Shown: in pieces, positions 36,699 to 47,501 of the stretch | Numbering within the stretch: position 1 is the stretch's first letter | Layout: each line of letters starts with the position of its first letter | IMG/VR virus record: IMGVR_UViG_3300029448_004129 | Coordinates: 35,067 to 82,636 of that record | Length of the DNA: 47,570 bases | Reading direction: 5' to 3' (one strand) | From: a virus | Made by a program: the position numbers and the translations under genes | The notes under the pieces: generated by a model | What the model saw: the letters and a program-made list of their open reading frames with translations, nothing else | The model's database searches: none | What the model was told of the DNA's origin: nothing

Positions 36699-37226
36699 AT
36701 GGCAACAATATTCGACAAAATAAGAGCAGAGGCGGGAAGTAGAGACTTATCACTTGCGTGGTACCGTAAACAGGTAAACGCATTGGCAAGTCGTATATCT
36801 GCTGGTCGTTTAATGCGTGAGGGTAAGTTGAGAAGCACACCAAAAATTAACACATTAAACTTCTTTAGATATGATCCAAAGACAGCGGCACTCTTACCAT
36901 ACTATGATAGGTTTCCATTAGTCATGCCCATAGGGGCCGCAAAAGGTGGTTTCTTAGGCATTAACTTTCACTATCTACCAATACCAATGAGAATGAGATT
37001 GTTAGAGACACTCGCAAAAAGAAATTTCAAAGGTGATTATAGAAAGTTGAAAAACATAAAACTCGTAAAACCGTGTGTGAAACACTATCTACGTTCACAG
37101 TTTGCTAGTCAGTTTTATGCTTTAGAAGAATTAGATTTCGCACCCGCAATATTCATGCCAGTTCAATCGTTTAAGAAGGCAGGTATGTCAGCGGCACATA
37201 GAGATAGTAGAAGGATAGCAAGTTAA
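36699..37226 (+). CDS. Conserved phage protein, DNA-end or neck type (175 aa)
   Basis: The segment TLNFFRYDPKTAALLPYYDR followed by FPLVMPIGAAKGGFLGINFH and YLPIPMRMRLLE is highly conserved in T4-like phages (YDPKTxxxLPYYDxFPLV is its core). I remember it as a conserved structural or DNA-associated protein, sometimes annotated DNA end protector, but I am not sure of the function. The N-terminus is basic. It is the first gene of the rightward operon and ends one base into the nuclease gene. Confidence 0.75.
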   Translation: MATIFDKIRAEAGSRDLSLAWYRKQVNALASRISAGRLMREGKLRSTPKINTLNFFRYDPKTAALLPYYDRFPLVMPIGAAKGGFLGINFHYLPIPMRMRLLETLAKRNFKGDYRKLKNIKLVKPCVKHYLRSQFASQFYALEELDFAPAIFMPVQSFKKAGMSAAHRDSRRIAS

Positions 37227-37651
37227 TGGCAAAGTTAGGTGACCCAACAGATTTCAGTTATCGTGTCAACAAGGTTGTAAAAGTTGTTGATGGTGATACA
37301 ATAGACGTATTGTTAGATTTAGGATTTGACATTATGTATAACAGTAGAGTAAGACTATTTGGTATTGATACACCAGAGAGTAGAACAAGTGATAAGATAG
37401 AAAAAAAATACGGCATGTTGTCTAAGAAATTTCTTAAAGAAGCATTGGCAAACGGCACTAAGATTTCTATAAAAACTTACAAAGGCGATGAGACTGGTAA
37501 GTTTGGTAGAATACTTGGTGATGTATTCGTAGATGGTAAATCTGTGAATAGTGCCCTATGTAAAGCAGGTCACGCTGTAGAATATTATGGTCAAAGTAAA
37601 GATGATGTTGAGGCAGCACACATGAAAAACAGAAAGAAACATAAGGTATAA
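37226..37651 (+). CDS. Staphylococcal-nuclease-type endonuclease (141 aa)
   Basis: SNase-fold enzymes cut DNA and RNA with Ca2+. The core is complete: VVKVVDGDTIDVLLDLGF, then VRLFGIDTPES (the Arg and Glu of the active site) and FGRILGDVFVDGKSVNSALC (second Arg). The length fits the domain alone, with no signal peptide, so it acts in the cytoplasm or inside the virion. It overlaps the stop of the previous gene by one base, and gp54 follows after one base. Its place in a tail operon suggests host or competitor DNA breakdown, or entry with DNA. Confidence 0.9.
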   Translation: MAKLGDPTDFSYRVNKVVKVVDGDTIDVLLDLGFDIMYNSRVRLFGIDTPESRTSDKIEKKYGMLSKKFLKEALANGTKISIKTYKGDETGKFGRILGDVFVDGKSVNSALCKAGHAVEYYGQSKDDVEAAHMKNRKKHKV

Positions 37652-37652
37652 A

Positions 37653-38594
37653 GTGGCAATTTTTCGACAAGGCAAAAGATTAGGACCATTTGATATAAGA
37701 CTTGGTATACCACGTGGACGTGAGTATGACAACATACCAGGTGATCCTAGAGTAAAACAACGTGCCAATCCTGAAACAACTATAAATCGTTTTAGGGCTG
37801 CAATCTCAAAAGGCGAAGGGCTTGCTCGTAACACTAGATTTCTAGTGAACATTGGATTGCCAAAAGGTAAGATATTAGAAGAAATATTAAATACAACAAA
37901 CACAAAAGCAAGACAAGGTGTTATTGTTGATGAGCAACAATCTGGTGCTGTTGGTGTATTATCTAACGATAGAAATATGTCACCAGACGCTTCGTTGATG
38001 TGTACCAATGCAACTATGCCTAGTCGAACATTGAATACAAGTCCATATCGTATATCTGGTGCAACATATAAGTACCCAACGCAAGTTCAATATAGTGACG
38101 TTACATTGACGTTCATTGGTGATAAATTTTTACGTCTAAGACGTTTCTTTGAAATGTGGCAAGGTGCGATATATAATAATCAAACTGGATTGTTTAACTT
38201 CTACAAAGAGTATATTGGCGATATAGATATATTTCAGTTAGGTTCTTTTGATGACACTAACGATAGAGACGCGGCTACTTATGGTGTAAGATTAAGAGAG
38301 GCATTCCCAACAGCGATTGGGGAAGTCAACTACGATAGTGGTTCTCAGAATGGTTTTGTTGCGATTAGCGTTACATTCGCATATAGAGATTGGTTGAATT
38401 TCAACCTAGATGTTGATAGTGTCGGCAAAGTAGGCGGACTATCTTCAGGAGAGATTAAACCAGGTGGCGGATTCTTAGATAGTCTACCACCTGAATTAAG
38501 ACGGGCAGGACGTCAAGTTGTTGGTCAACTTAAACGTTCTATCCCAATTGGTAAAGTATTTGGTGGTAAAGTATTTCCACCATTTACATTTTAA
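37653..38594 (+). CDS. 54: Baseplate tail-tube initiator gp54-like (313 aa, GTG start)
   Basis: gp54 sits on gp48 and seeds the tail tube. RNTRFLVNIGLPKG, YRISGATYKYPTQVQYSDVT, and LTFIGDKFLRLRRFFEMWQG are those of tube-like proteins (gp19/gp48/gp54 fold). TFAYRDWLNFNLDVD closes the conserved part. The start is GTG, with AAGG eight bases upstream and only one base after the previous stop. T4 gp54 has 320 residues, almost the same. Confidence 0.8.
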   Translation: MAIFRQGKRLGPFDIRLGIPRGREYDNIPGDPRVKQRANPETTINRFRAAISKGEGLARNTRFLVNIGLPKGKILEEILNTTNTKARQGVIVDEQQSGAVGVLSNDRNMSPDASLMCTNATMPSRTLNTSPYRISGATYKYPTQVQYSDVTLTFIGDKFLRLRRFFEMWQGAIYNNQTGLFNFYKEYIGDIDIFQLGSFDDTNDRDAATYGVRLREAFPTAIGEVNYDSGSQNGFVAISVTFAYRDWLNFNLDVDSVGKVGGLSSGEIKPGGGFLDSLPPELRRAGRQVVGQLKRSIPIGKVFGGKVFPPFTF

Positions 38595-38614: not shown

Positions 38615-39316
38615 ATGGCTTTGCCGTTATTAAATACACAAACATTTGATTTGATGGTCCCTAGTACGGACGAAAAAATAAAATATAGACCCTTTCTTGT
38701 TAAGGAAGAAAAGATACTTCTACAAGCGCAAGAGGGTGAAGACAAGGAGATGATTGACGCTTTAATGACTATCATTAGTAATTGTACATTTGGTAAGATA
38801 CTACCAGAACAATATCCATCATTTGATATGGAGTACATATTTCTAAAGATACGTTCTAAGGCAGTTGGTGAGAAAGTCTCGTTAAACTTAACATGTCCTG
38901 ATGACAACGAAACCAAGGTACAAAGTACCATAGACCTATCAAAGGTTGAGGTTGAGGTTGAAGATGGACACTCGAATACAATTGACTTAACTGATACAGT
39001 AAGCGTGGTGATGAAGTACCCAACAGTAAAGACATTTTCTGGTAGAGATTTAAAGAAACTGTCACCTGAGGATACTATCTCTATGACTGGTCAATGTATT
39101 CACCAGATTGTTGATGGTGTTGAAACATATGAAGCAGATGATTTATCAGATAAAGAGATTGCGGACTTCCTAGAGAACCTAACGCAGGCTCAGTTTGGTA
39201 AGATACAAAACTTCTTTGCTACAATGCCTAGATTAAAGCATGTCGTTAATGTGACTAACCCTAAAACTAAAAAGAAAGGTAAAGTCGTATTAGAAGGTAT
39301 GCAAAGTTTTTTTTAA
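38615..39316 (+). CDS. 26: Baseplate hub assembly protein gp26-like (233 aa, zero-frame product)
   Basis: The T4_baseplate family pattern is plain: FDLMVPSTDEKIKYRPFLVK, EEKILLQAQEGEDKEMIDAL, then FDMEYIFLKIRSKAVGE and VSLNLTCPDDNE. It ends VLEGMQSFF. The last two codons are TTT TTT before TAA, in a run of eight T. This is a slippery heptamer next to a stop, with an open -1 frame continuing for 64 codons. AAGGAGAT precedes the ATG. Confidence 0.88.
   Translation: MALPLLNTQTFDLMVPSTDEKIKYRPFLVKEEKILLQAQEGEDKEMIDALMTIISNCTFGKILPEQYPSFDMEYIFLKIRSKAVGEKVSLNLTCPDDNETKVQSTIDLSKVEVEVEDGHSNTIDLTDTVSVVMKYPTVKTFSGRDLKKLSPEDTISMTGQCIHQIVDGVETYEADDLSDKEIADFLENLTQAQFGKIQNFFATMPRLKHVVNVTNPKTKKKGKVVLEGMQSFF
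39307..39313 (+). promoter_or_regulatory. Candidate -1 frameshift site (T TTT TTT)
   Basis: The heptamer T-TTT-TTT is set in the zero frame of gp26 directly before TAA at 39314-39316. Both Phe tRNAs can re-pair after a one-base slip and the -1 frame then reads on to 39507. Confidence 0.6.
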
Positions 39317-39507
39317 TATGCCTCTCTCATATTAATTTAGAACAATATTATGAATTGAATTTTAAGATGATACAGTTACACCATTGGTCGTTAACTGAGA
39401 TTGAAAATATGTTACCATATGAAAGAGAAGTTTATCTTGCTTTATTGAATGAACATATAAAGGAAGAGAACAAAAAGTATAGAGAGGCAAAGGCTAAGAG
39501 GAGTTAA
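39313..39507 (+). CDS. gp51-like frameshift extension of gp26
   Basis: Read in the -1 frame from the slip, this gives LICLSHINLEQYYELNFKMI, then QLHHWSLTEIENMLPYERE and VYLALLNEHIKEENKKYREA. The fusion would be 297 residues. If the part starts on its own, the ATG at 39367 gives 46 residues but has no ribosome site. The W-x-x-x-E-I-E-N-M-x-P-Y-E-R segment is the kind of sequence seen in small tail assembly proteins after gp26. The next gene follows after one base. Confidence 0.65.
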   Translation, partial: LICLSHINLEQYYELNFKMIQLHHWSLTEIENMLPYEREVYLALLNEHIKEENKKYREAKAKRS

Positions 39508-39508
39508 A

Positions 39509-39847
39509 ATGGCAGACGAAGAAACTAAAACAGTAACGGTTGATCCAGAAGTCGCAAAGAAAGACTTGAATGGTGATGGACACATCTCAAAAGCAGAGAT
39601 GGAGTTAGATATGGAATTTAAACGTAAAAGACTAGAGGACGAGGACGCTATGAGAGACGCTCAACGTAAGATGACTTGGTTTGCTCTTGCAGGTCTTTTA
39701 TTATATCCAATCGCAATCGTTATTGCTACTGTAGCAGGTCTGACACAAGCAAGTGAGATACTTGGTGATATGGCACCTACTTACTTTGTCGCTGTTGCTG
39801 GTATCGTTGCAGCCTTCTTTGGTTCACAGGCACTAAAAAAGAAATAA
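39509..39847 (+). CDS. EF-hand membrane protein (112 aa), holin-like
   Basis: A perfect 12-residue EF-hand loop is at residues 19-30 (DLNGDGHISKAE; ligands D19, N21, D23, H25, S27, E30). A charged helix (KRKRLEDEDAMRDAQRK) and two membrane helices (WFALAGLLLYPIAIVIATVA; TYFVAVAGIVAAFFGSQALK) follow. AGGAG stands before the ATG. Two helices after a soluble start would suit a holin or a tail-tip membrane factor that senses calcium; this is inference. Confidence 0.75.
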   Translation: MADEETKTVTVDPEVAKKDLNGDGHISKAEMELDMEFKRKRLEDEDAMRDAQRKMTWFALAGLLLYPIAIVIATVAGLTQASEILGDMAPTYFVAVAGIVAAFFGSQALKKK

Positions 39848-39850
39848 ACT

Positions 39851-42037
39851 ATGGCAACTTTTTCTGATGTAATATCTAAATTAGAGGAGAATAAAGGCGA
39901 TAACCGTGAGGTTACTGAGTCCTCAACGAAGGATCTATCTTCTACTATCATTGAGACGGCAAAGACCCAGAATAGGTCTTTTGGTCAATCTTTAGCATTA
40001 CAGTTTAAGAGAAATAATGACGCTCTAGGCAACATATCAAACACATTCTCAAATAACTTCCAGGAGATGATAAACTCTGCGGAAGACCAGGCTAATATGG
40101 CCGCAGATCAACAACAGGCAATGGCTGATCAGGCAGAGAGAAGTGCCCTACTAACCAAAAAAGGTGGGGGTGGAGATGATGGCTCAAAAGAAGCAGATGG
40201 TGTAGGTAAAGAGACGAAGAAAGGTCTTGCAGGCATACTCAGTAAATTAGGTATGGGTGCTGGTGGTATCATGTTAGGTGGTGGGGCATTACTCGCCGGG
40301 GCAGGATTACTCGCTGGTGGGGCAGGGGTTCTACTAGGTGAGTTGAATGAGTTAGATGGCAAGAAAGTAAGAGAAAATGTAAAAGAGTTATTAGGCATAT
40401 CTGATGACTTTGGTGGTAAGATAGGGTTCTTTGCTGAGGCAGGTACATTCGTTGTATCAATGACAGCAATTGGAGCGGGTCTGGCTGCATTTAGTATAGG
40501 CACAGGAGTTGCGGCAGCGGTAGATTATTTTTCTGCTTCAAGTGATTTCGCTAAAAACATTCGTGCCAATGTCAATGAATTATTAAGTATCAATGATGAC
40601 CATGGTGGTGATTTATCATTCTTAGCAGCAGGTGGGGCATTTGGTCTAGCCATGACTGGTATTGGGGCAGGTATCGCGGCATTTAGTGTTGGTGAGGCAG
40701 TTAGTGCTGGTGTTGATTACTTCTCAAAAGAAAGTGACTTCGCCAAAAATATAAGAGCCAATGTAAAAGAGTTATTGAGTATCAATGATGACCATGGTGG
40801 TTCATTAGAGTTCTTAAAAGACGGTGGTGGATTCTTTATTGCTATGACGGCTATAGGTGCGGGTCTTGCCGTATTCGGGGCAGGTTCTGCTGTTGCGGCA
40901 GCGTCTGATTCCTTTATTGCCCTTGACGCAAAAAGTATAGTTGATAATGTTACGACACTATTAGGTATCAATGATTTATTCACAGGGTTTGGAGACGCAT
41001 TAGTAGAAGGTGGTACGTTCTTCGTTGCCATGACGGGTATTGCTGCTGGTCTGGCTGTATTTGGCGCTGGGTCTGCGGTCGCAGCCCTAACAACTGGAGC
41101 GGGTGATTTCGTCAACCCAGATTGGGCACAAAGTATAGTTGATAATGTTACTACACTATTAAGTATCGCCAGTTTAGAAAATCTTGGTGACACGGCATTG
41201 TTCGTTGCCACTATGGGTGGTATTGGGGCAGGTCTCTTAGCATTTAGTGTTGGTAAGGCTGGGGCAGGTCTGGCAGAGGTTATTACACAATTCTCTGGTG
41301 TTGATTTCACACAAACAATAAAAGATAACGTCACAAGTTTATTAGGTATCATGGACGATCCTAACATCAACGTATCTAAGGCGGCAGACTTCACAACCGT
41401 CATGGGTGTTATAAGTGCGGGTCTATTGGCATTCTCTGGTGGTAAGTTAGTATCTGCCCTTGCCAATGTAGGTACATCTATACTCAACTTCTTATCAGGC
41501 GAAAAGAGTCCTGTACAGGAGATGTTAGACTTGGCTGATAATGCTAAGGATCTAACAACTGCTTCAACGGCACTAGATAGTCTGGCAATATCACTACAAT
41601 CCATATCTGGATTACAGTTTGATGGTAAAAAGATTAATATGAAAGAGTTTGCTAGTGACTTAGCAGAAAGTGTACCAGTTATAGAGGCAGCCATCATGGG
41701 TGGCACAATAAAGAAATTTGGTCTATTCAATGATATAGACTTTGAAGGTCTCGCAAGTCCAGAGATTGATTTTGATGTGGCAACTCAACGTATAAGAGAG
41801 TTACGTATGGCACTTGGTGCTGAAGTGGCACAGAAACAAGAAATGGCGGCAGATAGTGCCGCGGCACAAAATATGTCTAATATAAATGCTACCAACACGT
41901 CAGTTTCTAATACCAACGTTCAAAGTAAATCAACTTACTCTGTGGCAAGTTCAGTTCATAACCATGAGCGAACCGTTGGCATGATGAACAATATAAACGG
42001 TTCGCAATATAGTGAAACTCCTTTTGAAGATTTTTAA
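39851..42037 (+). CDS. Probable tail tape measure protein (728 aa)
   Basis: After a helical, polar start (about 120 residues) and a Gly-rich hydrophobic region (GAGGIMLGGGALLAGAGLLA), there are six repeats of about 60-66 residues. Each has a soluble strand-helix (IRANVNELLSINDDHGG or IVDNVTTLLGI) and a hydrophobic hairpin (AMTGIGAGIAAFSVGEAV). The last 200 residues are helical. A long repetitive protein with membrane-compatible hairpins, next to gp26 and EF-hand genes, fits a tape measure (T4 gp29 position) that may insert in the inner membrane at DNA entry. I cannot align it with gp29. Confidence 0.65.
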   Translation: MATFSDVISKLEENKGDNREVTESSTKDLSSTIIETAKTQNRSFGQSLALQFKRNNDALGNISNTFSNNFQEMINSAEDQANMAADQQQAMADQAERSALLTKKGGGGDDGSKEADGVGKETKKGLAGILSKLGMGAGGIMLGGGALLAGAGLLAGGAGVLLGELNELDGKKVRENVKELLGISDDFGGKIGFFAEAGTFVVSMTAIGAGLAAFSIGTGVAAAVDYFSASSDFAKNIRANVNELLSINDDHGGDLSFLAAGGAFGLAMTGIGAGIAAFSVGEAVSAGVDYFSKESDFAKNIRANVKELLSINDDHGGSLEFLKDGGGFFIAMTAIGAGLAVFGAGSAVAAASDSFIALDAKSIVDNVTTLLGINDLFTGFGDALVEGGTFFVAMTGIAAGLAVFGAGSAVAALTTGAGDFVNPDWAQSIVDNVTTLLSIASLENLGDTALFVATMGGIGAGLLAFSVGKAGAGLAEVITQFSGVDFTQTIKDNVTSLLGIMDDPNINVSKAADFTTVMGVISAGLLAFSGGKLVSALANVGTSILNFLSGEKSPVQEMLDLADNAKDLTTASTALDSLAISLQSISGLQFDGKKINMKEFASDLAESVPVIEAAIMGGTIKKFGLFNDIDFEGLASPEIDFDVATQRIRELRMALGAEVAQKQEMAADSAAAQNMSNINATNTSVSNTNVQSKSTYSVASSVHNHERTVGMMNNINGSQYSETPFEDF

Positions 42038-42121: not shown

Positions 42122-44017
42122 TTAGTTCTCCTTTTGAATTGATTGAGCATTGTGCTCATTTGCCTCGATATCGTCATGCGATTTCTCCTCTGGTTTATAT
42201 ATGGTTATGAGTTCCTCTTTACCCTTAACCTTTATCTTATCTAACTCAACTGATTTAATATCAACCAATTGTTCCATAGTATAAGACGAATATATCGTAG
42301 GTGTAACTTTACCATTCTCATCTTTGTAATTTCTTGTGGACGCTTCTAAACGTGCCGCAAGATTTACAGCGTCACCAATAACTGAATAATCTAATCGCAT
42401 TTCACTACCCATATTACCTACTATACATGTACCAGTATTAACACCTGAACCAATGTTAATATCTGGTAAACCTTTTTCTTTAAACTCTTTCTTAATTCTA
42501 TCTGTCTCTTCCGCACACTCGATACTTGTCTTAACTGCCATCTCAGCATGGTTCTCACAATCAAGTGGTGCGTTCCAGAATGCCATTATACAATCACCCA
42601 TGTACTTGTCTATTGTACCACCATTCTTCATAACTATCATACTCATTCTGTTTAGATAGTCATTGATTACATTTACAAGTCCCTCTGGATCATCTTTGTT
42701 CTTATAGTATTCTGAAATAGGTGTGAAACCAACAATGTCCATGAATAAGAAACTCATTTCTTTTCTTTCACCACCTAGTTTTAATTTACTTGGGTCTTTT
42801 ACTAATATCGCCACTTGTCGTGGATCCAAGTATTTCTCAAACTGTTTTCTTATCTGTTGTTTTGCCCTAAACTCTAATATGAAACGTAGGAATGTGGCAT
42901 GGAATCCAGTAACCCATAGTGTCAATAATATCCATGTAACATCTATCAACACCAACGTCTCAAAGGCGATTGTGAAGTAGTTACCTATACCTAATGAGGC
43001 ACCAAGTAATGCAAGTCCAATAATCCAGTAAGGTGCAAATCTTGTTAATACTATTATAACACAACCTACCAGGAATGCAAGCGCTAATTCAATAAGACTA
43101 TCATATCTCTTTATCGTCTCTCCGTCAAGTATTGTTTGTAGTGAGTTGGCACTTATAACATAGTCGTACTGTTCACCTTTTGGCGTGGCAATAACACTCG
43201 ATAGACCCTCTGCCGTCAATGCGATTATAACTGTGGTACCTGCAGCCTCATCAAAATTATCACTCGCGGCACTAATTGTCTTAAACTCTTTATTCCAACG
43301 TAACCATATTCTTGCGTTTGCGTCTGTGTTTATAGTTGCATATGCAGGCACTCTCATCGCCACAACACCTGTTTGATCTGCTTTTACTTGATATGATGGA
43401 TCGCCAACAGCAACTCTAATTGTCTCTATCGCCATGTTAGGGTAAACTTCTTCACCAATCTTCATTAACAATGGCACTCGTCTCGTAACACCATCTATCT
43501 CTGGCGCCGTATTGATAACACCTACACCAGAAGCACATTCTGCCAACTCTGGTAGTGGTCCAACCATACCAGGCCATTCGTATAAGAAGTTGAGTGGGTC
43601 ACCTATCTTTGCCACACCTCTTGGTACAGGATTAGATGTTCTTTTTTGTACAGTACCAGTCTGTGCAATTACTGTACCATATGTTAGTGTCTCACAGAAA
43701 TCCATGTCACCATCAAATCTGTCTCTTTCACTAAACAATATTGGCATTACAATTATGCCTGTCTGTGCCTGTCGTAAATCAACAATCATATCTGCCAATA
43801 CTTGTCTTGGCCAAGGCCACTGTCCGTATTTCTCAATCGCTTCTTCGTCTATTGTTATGATTGTTATGTCCTGAGAAGGTGTGACTTCTTCGTTGCCTAG
43901 CACGTAGTCAAATGATTTAAGACGTAAGATTTCTTTGAAACCTGGGTCTTGTAATCCTATATAAGTCAACAATACCAACGTAATAAAGGCAGTTGACCAG
44001 TGGGTCAAAAACTTCAT
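42122..44017 (-). CDS. CHASE2-class III adenylate/guanylate cyclase (631 aa)
   Basis: Layout: membrane helix (about 8-22), CHASE2 sensor outside the membrane (about 30-300, with YGQWPWPRQVLADMIVDLRQ), three membrane helices (about 307-378), a linker, and a class III cyclase (about 418-608). The cyclase site is complete: metal Asp 427 (FMDIVGF) and Asp 475 (KYMGD), base-binding Lys 471, Ser 545 where bacterial type IIIb enzymes have Thr, and Asn 552/Arg 556 (VNLAARLE). It should make cAMP. CHASE2 cyclases in bacteria are often neighbours of FecR-domain proteins, as here. It lies ten bases after the curlin-like gene. A full, apparently intact membrane cyclase in a phage is remarkable. Confidence 0.92.
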   Translation of the reverse strand: MKFLTHWSTAFITLVLLTYIGLQDPGFKEILRLKSFDYVLGNEEVTPSQDITIITIDEEAIEKYGQWPWPRQVLADMIVDLRQAQTGIIVMPILFSERDRFDGDMDFCETLTYGTVIAQTGTVQKRTSNPVPRGVAKIGDPLNFLYEWPGMVGPLPELAECASGVGVINTAPEIDGVTRRVPLLMKIGEEVYPNMAIETIRVAVGDPSYQVKADQTGVVAMRVPAYATINTDANARIWLRWNKEFKTISAASDNFDEAAGTTVIIALTAEGLSSVIATPKGEQYDYVISANSLQTILDGETIKRYDSLIELALAFLVGCVIIVLTRFAPYWIIGLALLGASLGIGNYFTIAFETLVLIDVTWILLTLWVTGFHATFLRFILEFRAKQQIRKQFEKYLDPRQVAILVKDPSKLKLGGERKEMSFLFMDIVGFTPISEYYKNKDDPEGLVNVINDYLNRMSMIVMKNGGTIDKYMGDCIMAFWNAPLDCENHAEMAVKTSIECAEETDRIKKEFKEKGLPDINIGSGVNTGTCIVGNMGSEMRLDYSVIGDAVNLAARLEASTRNYKDENGKVTPTIYSSYTMEQLVDIKSVELDKIKVKGKEELITIYKPEEKSHDDIEANEHNAQSIQKEN

Positions 44018-44394: not shown

Positions 44395-45315
44395 TTAGTA
44401 TTGTGTTACGGAGACAGCACAACCACCAACAGTTTGGCAATTTTGATTTAGTGTATATGATTGGGCACTCGTACTCTGATTTGATCCTTGTTGTAAATTA
44501 AAATCTGTACCATAACTTCCACCTAGTGTTATGTTAGCAGTATGTTGCCAGTTTTTCTTCTGGTCTATATCAACGTTGTTATCGTCATTATTGAGTGTGA
44601 GTGTTAACTCCTTACCAGAGTTATGTTCTTGTATGATATGGATATCGTTATCGTCTGAATATACATTGATGTCCATATCATGTCCAGATGTGTTGTTACT
44701 GGATCGTTGAGATAACATGATATCATTTCTATCACCAGTTACTCGTAAGTCCATACTATGACCACCTATTTCTAAGTTGTCATAACTAAAATTACCATTC
44801 CCATCTATTTTATAACCTTGACCCATTTTGATATTATTGTTATTACCTTGATAAACATTTAGTATCATGTGGTCTTGGTTACATGATGTGGCTGAACATT
44901 GTTGTTTCGCAATAACAGAATTATCATCATAATCTATCTCTAAATCCATGATAGCGTTATTGTGTATCTGTAGGGCGTCAAAATTATTATTGTCACCATG
45001 ATTGTCTAGGTACATTGTATTACCATCACCAGTTTGTACTGCGGTCATTGTACTTGATGTTTGATTATCAGAACCGTAATAGTGTTTGTATAGACCTATC
45101 TTATTATTATTACCAGTCTGTGTAAAATTAATCGTTTGATTTTTACCATACAATGTGGCAGGTGATGCTGCCGTACTCTTTGTAGATATCCTATTATTCT
45201 GACCGTCTTGCGTGATGGTTACCGTAACGTTAGTACCAACTTGACCTATGTAGATTTCATTGGTATAACCAGGGCTTGTCCAGATTAGAATGCTTATTAT
45301 CAGTATTCTTATCAT
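44395..45315 (-). CDS. Curlin-like secreted repeat protein (306 aa)
   Basis: Signal peptide (MIRILIISILIWTSPGYTNE), then about ten curlin-like repeats: VTITQDGQNNRIST, INFTQTGNNNKIGL, MTAVQTGDGNTMYL, NHGDNNNFDALQI, NVYQGNNNNIKMG, LRVTGDRNDIML, INVYSDDNDIHI, LTLNNDDNNVDIDQ, FNLQQGSNQSTS. N, D, Q and G dominate. Two Cys pairs (140/145, 293/299) stand in turns. The repeats are longer and less even than in E. coli CsgA (about 22 residues each). It has only a weak GAAAAG site before ATG. Confidence 0.8.
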   Translation of the reverse strand: MIRILIISILIWTSPGYTNEIYIGQVGTNVTVTITQDGQNNRISTKSTAASPATLYGKNQTINFTQTGNNNKIGLYKHYYGSDNQTSSTMTAVQTGDGNTMYLDNHGDNNNFDALQIHNNAIMDLEIDYDDNSVIAKQQCSATSCNQDHMILNVYQGNNNNIKMGQGYKIDGNGNFSYDNLEIGGHSMDLRVTGDRNDIMLSQRSSNNTSGHDMDINVYSDDNDIHIIQEHNSGKELTLTLNNDDNNVDIDQKKNWQHTANITLGGSYGTDFNLQQGSNQSTSAQSYTLNQNCQTVGGCAVSVTQY

Positions 45316-45728: not shown

Positions 45729-46849
45729 TATTGTAACTGTTTTATTGTTATTGCGTTATCCTGTCCACCTAGTTCAAAATCATACATTTCAAACTCGTCT
45801 TGTATTATATTTAGTATATATCCATACTCTTTGTCAAGTCTTAATTCTATATATGCCCCACCAGCGTCTTCTCGTATCCATACCCATTGTGGATCCTCAT
45901 CTAATATAATGACACCTGTTACTGGATCTTTACCTAATCGTATTCCGTCTACTGATTTTTGTTTATCAAATTCATTTCTCATTTGTTTGGCAAGTTCTTC
46001 ATTGATTTGTGCTAGTATGTCTGCCAAAAAATTTTGTTGTAAGAAATCTATGTCTAAACCAGTTACATATAAATCTTCTTCTTCCTCTAAGTAGTCAACC
46101 TCTAAATCATCAAATTGTAAAAAGTCTAGGTCTAATGCGTCTGAAACTTCTTTTAATTTATCCTGATAATTTTCTTCCTCTAGTTTTTCTGGTTTTGCAA
46201 CGATTAACATATTATTAATCATATCTAATTCTAAGTCTAATTTTACAGGTGGTGATGGTGGACTCTCTGGCACGTTTACCTGTGTCGCTTGAAATGCCTG
46301 ATTGAGTATAACTTGTCCTGCACCACTTTCAACACTAATCTCACCAACTAAACAATTACCCTTTACATCACAACTTGGTAATAATATTATCGTACTACCA
46401 CCTAGTTCATCTATCGTCATAGAAAAATCTGTGCCCCTAACACCTATTGTTGCCGTGGGTGTTGTAATCGTTATATCTTGTCTGGAAGTTTTAGCAATTT
46501 GTCCTGACGCATATCTTATTGTGCCAAGTTTTGCTGATAGATTTAATTTACCTTTTTTTGTGTTAGGGTCATATACAAATTCATCTATAACTAATTTACT
46601 GTGTTGGGTTACATCTACCCTGGTATCATCTATGAATAGAATACCAACTTTACCATTACCAGTCTTTACAGTATCAAACTGTTCTACTTCTAATTCTTCT
46701 TGGATTGTTATATCTGTTTTATCACGGTCGATAACACCGTTACCTTCTAGTTGGTCAACGTTTCCTATGCTACCCCATAAAGAGGTAGCACAGAATATTA
46801 TTAATAATATTAAAAGTCCTCTAATCGTCCTGTGATATGTCAATATCAT
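45728..46849 (-). CDS. FecR-domain secreted protein (373 aa)
   Basis: After a signal or anchor helix (GLLILLIIFCATSLWGS) comes the FecR beta-domain: GNGKVGILFIDDTRVDVTQH, LVIDEFVYDPNTKKGKLNL, LGTIRYASGQIAK, ITTPTATIGVRGTDFS. The IGVRGTDF end is diagnostic. The C-terminal half is acidic and ends FELGGQDNAITIKQLQ, which looks like one curlin strand. I start at ATG 46849 because AGGTGA stands five bases before it; a GTG nine bases earlier is less good. In bacteria such proteins stand next to CHASE2 cyclases. It overlaps the previous curlin-like gene. Confidence 0.88.
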   Translation of the reverse strand: MILTYHRTIRGLLILLIIFCATSLWGSIGNVDQLEGNGVIDRDKTDITIQEELEVEQFDTVKTGNGKVGILFIDDTRVDVTQHSKLVIDEFVYDPNTKKGKLNLSAKLGTIRYASGQIAKTSRQDITITTPTATIGVRGTDFSMTIDELGGSTIILLPSCDVKGNCLVGEISVESGAGQVILNQAFQATQVNVPESPPSPPVKLDLELDMINNMLIVAKPEKLEEENYQDKLKEVSDALDLDFLQFDDLEVDYLEEEEDLYVTGLDIDFLQQNFLADILAQINEELAKQMRNEFDKQKSVDGIRLGKDPVTGVIILDEDPQWVWIREDAGGAYIELRLDKEYGYILNIIQDEFEMYDFELGGQDNAITIKQLQ

Positions 46850-47501
46850 GGTTGTCACCTACTGTTGTCAAATTGATTATGTTATCATACAAACCAGATT
46901 GTGTTATATCTACATCAGCGATTGATCCCGTATGGGAATGGACTAAGGTGTGTCCGTTAACATCACCATTACCATTTATATCAATTAAATAATTATTTGT
47001 ATCACCATTTACGGTCAACGTTAATATGGCACTCGTACCATCTATAGTAGCAGCAACAACGTTACTATCACTACCAGAGGCACCAGTTATACTTACAGTT
47101 GCGTTTGCCGCGTCTGCTGTCTCACCAATATCAATATCAATATCGTTACTATTACCTACCCATACAATGGAGGCTGTAGCAGTAGCACATGAGGATCCTG
47201 TCCCTGCGCTGTCACAATTGAAATCAATATCGTTTGAGTTACCAGTCGTACTAAACGTACCTGTGAAAGTTGCACCGTTTACATCAAACTTTAAAACGTT
47301 ACTATTACCAACCTGATCAATGTCGATAGTGGTAGTAGCACCAATCACGCTTGAAGCGGTTGTACTATTACCTACAGTATTGTTTTGTCCGTCTTGGGTA
47401 ATGTCGAGGTCAAGCGTTGCACCAGATTGTGTCACATAGATATCATTCGCACTTACCGGTAGTGCCAACAACATTACTATTACGATTAATTTAGCGTACA
47501 T
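46821..47501 (-). CDS. Curlin-like secreted repeat protein (226 aa)
   Basis: Signal peptide (MYAKLIVIVMLLALPVSAND), then LDITQDGQNNTVGN, IDIDQVGNSNVLKFDV, TTGNSNDIDFN, IVWVGNSNDIDIDI, TVNGDTNNYLIDIN, DITQSGLYDNIINL and TVGDNHDIDISQ: seven to eight curlin-like strand-turn units. Cys 96 and 105 frame a loop (CDSAGTGSSC). GGAG precedes the ATG and lies in the stop of the CsgG-like gene. It is the first curlin gene after the pore gene. Confidence 0.8.
   Translation of the reverse strand: MYAKLIVIVMLLALPVSANDIYVTQSGATLDLDITQDGQNNTVGNSTTASSVIGATTTIDIDQVGNSNVLKFDVNGATFTGTFSTTGNSNDIDFNCDSAGTGSSCATATASIVWVGNSNDIDIDIGETADAANATVSITGASGSDSNVVAATIDGTSAILTLTVNGDTNNYLIDINGNGDVNGHTLVHSHTGSIADVDITQSGLYDNIINLTTVGDNHDIDISQDD

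Follow-up and report, generated by a model that had tools for sequence, protein, structure and literature searches.

A probable programmed −1 ribosomal frameshift makes short and long tail assembly chaperones from gp26 and gp51 in marine T4-like phages

Organization of the gp26–gp51 locus

The window, a stretch of 47,570 nucleotides from an uncultured marine T4-like phage of the pelagiphage type, carries the genes for a tail tube protein, gp26, gp51, a 112-aa protein, and a tape measure candidate assigned by position only, in this order (Table 1). Gp26 matches PF12322 over the whole length of the profile (3.3e-64, residues 11–233) and phrog_150 in a profile search (6.4e-70). The 3' end of its gene reads AGT TTT TTT TAA. 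The run of eight T residues at 39307–39314 includes the heptamer T_TTT_TTT, and the stop codon follows directly, as the preliminary description had pointed out. In the −1 frame, no stop is encountered from 39313 until 39505–39507. The 64 residues encoded there (LICLSHINLEQYYELNFKMIQLHHWSLTEIENMLPYEREVYLALLNEHIKEENKKYREAKAKRS) match phrog_634, 'baseplate hub assembly catalyst' (gp51), with an E-value of 1.6e-24 (1.3e-27 in the genome search), in support of the gp51 identity proposed earlier, and HTVC008M matches 97% of this tail at 73% identity. Joined by a −1 shift, gp26 and the gp51 tail give a computed product of 297 aa; the predicted junction peptides are VVLEGMQSFFLICLSHINLEQYYELNFK for the window and VVLEGLQSFFLICLSHIDLETYYDLIFK for HTVC008M.

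Table 1 Features at and around the gp26–gp51 junction in the window
Feature	Position	Strand	Basis
Tail tube protein, upstream neighbour	37653..38594	+	phrog_45, 7.7e-41
gp26, most likely the short tail assembly chaperone (TAC-N), 233 aa	38615..39316	+	PF12322, phrog_150, AlphaFold2 model
GAAGG, weak Shine-Dalgarno-like, 9 nt 5' of the heptamer	39293..39297	+	sequence
Slippery heptamer T_TTT_TTT, in frame	39307..39313	+	sequence; in-frame T_TTT_TTN in 339 relatives
−1 frame gp51 tail (putative TAC-C), 64 aa; with the shift, a predicted 297-aa TAC-NC	39313..39507	+	
Zero-frame stop TAA, directly 3' of the heptamer	39314..39316	+	sequence
Weak AU-rich hairpin UAAUAUG-CCUCUCU-CAUAUUA, directly after the heptamer	39314..39334	+	nearly invariant in the window clade
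Internal ATG, −1 frame; annotated as the gp51 start in HTVC008M, not considered the real one	39367..39369	+	no Shine-Dalgarno; conserved tail codons upstream
112-aa EF-hand-like protein with a probable membrane segment, between gp51 and the next gene	39509..39847	+	
728-aa protein, tape measure candidate by position only	39851..42037	+	place of the HTVC008M 'putative tail tape measure'

The 112-aa protein and its positional counterpart in HTVC008M are 58% identical; the match of the former to EF-hand_5 (0.0025) is below the cut-off. The 728-aa protein contains repeated hydrophobic Gly/Ala-rich blocks of about 60–65 aa each. It has no significant sequence match to the HTVC008M tape measure candidate and no Pfam or PHROG family hit, and the absence of that match led us to reject the gene as a proven tape measure gene. 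Further out, the gene for a Staphylococcal-nuclease-like protein (37226–37651, plus strand; SNase, 7e-16) is flanked by those for the DNA end protector and the tail tube protein. On the minus strand, 42122–44017 encodes a 631-aa protein with a CHASE2 sensor and an adenylate/guanylate cyclase catalytic domain (Pfam, 2e-37 and 5.4e-19), and a cyclase is annotated at the matching place in HTVC008M. The proteins encoded at 44395–45315 and 46821–47501 (minus strand) have Asn/Gln-rich repeats and look like curlin subunits by eye; curli genes (CsgB-like, CsgG) are annotated in the matching region of HTVC008M.

Conservation of the slippery heptamer

The preliminary description had proposed that homologous loci be aligned for a kept slippery run. 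Our set of loci combines the 80 nearest IMG/VR loci, named phages, and further scans; 80 of the loci from the further scans were collected by a protein pattern containing DFF, which leaves the choice of codons unbiased. The run is kept: 339 loci (184 clusters) have an in-frame T_TTT_TTN with the gp51 tail in the −1 frame. All of the 80 nearest IMG/VR loci have T_TTT_TTN at the end of gp26 and the same tail in the −1 frame. One more locus (L222) has the heptamer on a contig that ends before the tail becomes recognisable and stands outside the 339. Heptamer-bearing taxa include Kyanoviridae, Schizotequatrovirus (the KVP40 group), Aeh1, Pootjesviridae, pf16, PhiW-14, Menderavirus, and DLP6.

The heptamer most often ends in C (138 of the 184 clusters) and less often in T (33), A (8), or G (5). 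The T run is only six residues long in 150 clusters, usually as TTTTTTC, and the zero-frame stop lies 0, 1, 2, 3, or 8 codons after the heptamer. As a control, comparable x-F-F/L sites of the same residue classes elsewhere in the same genes have the heptamer in only 16 of 101 cases. Given codon usage, the retention of xxT TTT codons in the 184 clusters has a log10 P of about −81, a value to be read as a guide and not as a probability, the clusters being related and not fully independent. GC-rich phages keep the heptamer too; a locus with a GC3 of 0.95 (L240) has GAT TTT TTA. By sequence comparison, this conservation across relatives shows that the two-frame arrangement with the heptamer is not due to chance.

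The heptamer is lacking in two Ackermannviridae (Ag3 and UPM2146), in Vibrio K351, in L272, which is one T short, and in the T4-type gp51 genes. L272 is an IMG/VR copy of a Stenotrophomonas phage and, near position 2250, has one T fewer than the near-identical L270, so that the frames are fused; the loss is either a homopolymer sequencing error or a real mutation. In Ag3 and K351 a stop/ATG overlap is present, and UPM2146 has neither heptamer nor ATG there (L093, L096, and L094). KVP40-type phages, Pootjesviridae, PhiW-14, and Yut2 (L089, L097, L086, L087, L090, and L091) combine the heptamer with an ATG that overlaps the stop of gp26, and so could produce the fusion as well as a free tail.

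RNA signals, start codons, and selection on the −1 tail

In the family, the 60 nt after the heptamer fold far more stably than expected from synonymous shuffles (mean MFE Z of −2.27 ± 0.14), compared with a Z of −0.30 for the control region 60–120 nt downstream. The stems vary in place and sequence from group to group. The window and its clade lack such extra stability, their downstream RNA scoring a z of +0.4 to +0.5 against shuffles, and HTVC008M lacks it too, whereas the sister clade (L014/L023) does have downstream RNA structure. What the window clade has is a roughly 35-nt block spanning the site, almost unchanged even between members with as little as 63% gp26 identity, and with raised synonymous conservation. 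The weak hairpin directly after the heptamer has the same sequence in 17 clade members, again down to 63% gp26 identity. It is a possible stimulator of the shift. Its fold, about −5 kcal/mol, is no better than those of shuffles, and on this ground a downstream stem-loop was rejected as the stimulator in the window.

Upstream of the heptamer, the GAAGG motif is a doubtful stimulator. Among relatives, Shine-Dalgarno-like 5-mers are seen 76 times against 43.5 expected, and matches of four or more 154 times against 143. A dnaX-like upstream Shine-Dalgarno stimulator was rejected because the L-E-G codons account for most of the signal and the 5-mer excess is small. For the pelagiphage clade, we tentatively consider, as a rather unlikely possibility, that the shift occurs without stable downstream structure and depends on the 8-T run, the adjacent stop, and the near-invariant 35-nt element with its weak hairpin, slow termination or RNA polymerase slippage then acting as the stimulator in place of the stem-loops of sister clades.

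Transcriptional slippage could also account for the arrangement as a whole: RNA polymerase would stutter on the 8-T run, and mRNAs off by a base or two would have the gp51 tail in frame. The 8-T run of the window clade and the lack of significant downstream RNA structure in this clade fit such stuttering. However, the 150 clusters with only six T residues do not, a run of six T being too short for efficient transcriptional slippage, and the downstream RNA structure in most relatives fits ribosomal pausing. We consider this explanation improbable.

A start codon for the tail is the next matter. The preliminary description had noted that the internal ATG at 39367 lacks a ribosome site, and we find no Shine-Dalgarno-like sequence before it and conserved codons 5' of it. 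The only other start listed in the −1 frame of the window is TTG 39355, and there is none earlier. When the −1 frame is read from its upstream stop to the end of codon 12 of the tail, 77 of the 184 clusters contain none of ATG, GTG, and TTG; if only ATG and GTG are counted, 99 clusters are without a start. Across 139 start-less loci, the early tail codons have a pN/pS of 0.37 in the −1 frame versus 1.36 and 1.59 in the other registers, indicating that the early tail is under purifying selection at the protein level. The structural details of the preliminary description, among them a −1 frame open for 64 codons, are all confirmed. Because the early tail evolves as protein and yet is start-less, its translation cannot depend on a start codon within the stretch.

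These observations bear on internal initiation or termination-reinitiation, by which a separate small gp51 would be made from ATG 39367 or coupled to the gp26 stop. The HTVC008M annotation places the gp51 start at this ATG, an ATG overlaps the gp26 stop in 13 of the 184 clusters, and the heptamer-less Ag3 and K351 have stop/ATG overlaps. But the conserved tail begins at the heptamer, 5' of any start in those 77 clusters and under purifying selection, the ATG lacks a Shine-Dalgarno sequence, and T4 gp51 contains head and tail in one chain; we regard separate initiation as improbable. A sequencing error or decayed gene, in which the locus is truly one frame with a wrong T count, has in its favour the one-T difference between L272 and L270 that aligns the frames, but it is refuted by the 339 loci, sequenced in many different projects, in which the two-frame arrangement recurs, and has a negligible probability.

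Probable short and long forms of a tail assembly chaperone

A programmed −1 ribosomal frameshift very probably makes a short and a long tail assembly chaperone from gp26 and gp51. The majority of ribosomes would terminate at TAA 39314 to give the 233-aa TAC-N. In the remaining minority, the peptidyl- and aminoacyl-tRNA(Phe) paired with UUU UUU would move back one base at U_UUU_UUU, and translation would continue into the gp51 tail to give the 297-aa TAC-NC. If the roles match those in lambda gpG/gpGT, the part shared by both forms would coat the tape measure protein, and the gp51 tail would recruit tail tube subunits. Sequence comparison provides the two frames, the heptamer kept among relatives, the protein-level selection on the −1 tail, and the fused T4 gp51, and a structural model supports the TAC-like N-terminal fold; the slip itself, its efficiency, the product ratio, and the binding roles are what we infer.

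T4 gp26 and gp51 are named as hub assembly chaperones (PMC3004832). T4 gp51 (249 aa) can be aligned with the fusion profile over its full length, junction included (hhalign E of 7e-23), and matches PF12322 (3.9e-52) and phrog_634 (1.2e-23). T4 gp26 aligns with the short form only. The two T4 genes are separate and on opposite strands; thus, T4 uses two genes instead, one for the short form and one for the full fusion, and needs no frameshift. In Campylobacter CPt10, head and tail form one open frame. Compared with T4 gp51, cyanophage gp51 is missing some 200 residues at its N terminus (Sullivan et al. 2010, PMC3037559), which we attribute to the frameshift.

The AlphaFold2 model of gp26 has a pLDDT of 86. 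Aligned with VIA-align, model residues 1–84 resemble the HK97 TAC (2OB9) with a Z of 7.8, a value below 8 and within reach of unrelated folds, and the Foldseek E is 0.86; 3FGX (7.3), YqbN (3KLU, 6.6), and 5IR0 (4.6) follow, and the next entry scores 2.9. Foldseek against the PDB gives no significant match for gp26 or T4-type gp51, a PDB sequence search returns nothing relevant and no sequence match to solved TACs, and NCBIfam has no model for gp26/gp51 proteins. The model supports a possible resemblance of the gp26 N-terminal domain to the HK97 tail assembly chaperone. Because of this resemblance and the colinearity with the T4 proteins, gp26 and gp26-51 are most likely TAC-N and TAC-NC, respectively. 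For marine T4-like phages, this corrects how gp26 and gp51 are annotated: most likely they are the short and long forms of one chaperone and not two hub proteins. In many records, gp51 is annotated with a wrong start or omitted.

The lambda gpG/gpGT type of layout suggested in the preliminary description is supported by the −1 heptamer, the start-less conserved tail, and the fused T4 counterpart. As in lambda gpG/gpGT and HK97 gp13/gp14 (Xu, Hendrix, Duda 2004), a short and a long form would arise from a −1 frameshift near the 3' end. The lambda and HK97 genes sit between those for the tail tube and the tape measure; in the window, the tail tube gene upstream is clear, and downstream lies a tape measure candidate by position only. 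Unlike these chaperones, gp26 is longer (233 aa) and has extra C-terminal parts, and the slippery site is T_TTT_TTN rather than the G_GGA_AAG of lambda.

The preliminary description knew of no such frameshift for gp26 in T4-like phages, and a literature search for a gp26 gp51 frameshift in those words found unrelated phages only. However, a study by Vladimirov, Gautam and Davidson (Virology 2022;566:9-15) is reported to have identified the tail assembly chaperone genes of T4-like phages, the same genes as gp26 and gp51 of the window. As cited elsewhere, it describes polyT sites for −1 slippage in the TAC-N genes of this group (PMC12846349) and, in some T4-like phages, separate short and fused long genes (PMC10885494). 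Since the mechanism has already been described for the T4-like group, the window is a further member; the 8-T run, the adjacent stop, and the lack of a stable downstream structure distinguish its clade. The breadth of conservation, the start-codon and selection tests, and the downstream RNA structure with its unusual absence in the pelagiphage clade are contributed here, and may in part be covered in that study.

The heptamer and the frame relation span cyanophages, pelagiphages, KVP40-type phages, Aeh1, and Rhizobium and Stenotrophomonas phages. Because of this span, we infer that the frameshift is likely the ancestral state and the two genes of T4 a later replacement. Frameshifting reportedly appears conserved in several T4-like groups, with T4 using genes 26 and 51. 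Outside these groups, the TAC of phage Adele (Vandenendeviridae/Andersonviridae, PMC12846349) likewise has a −1 shift at a T-rich site and a TAC-C upstream of the tape measure gene, but it belongs to other phage families and has a GTTTTT slippery motif.
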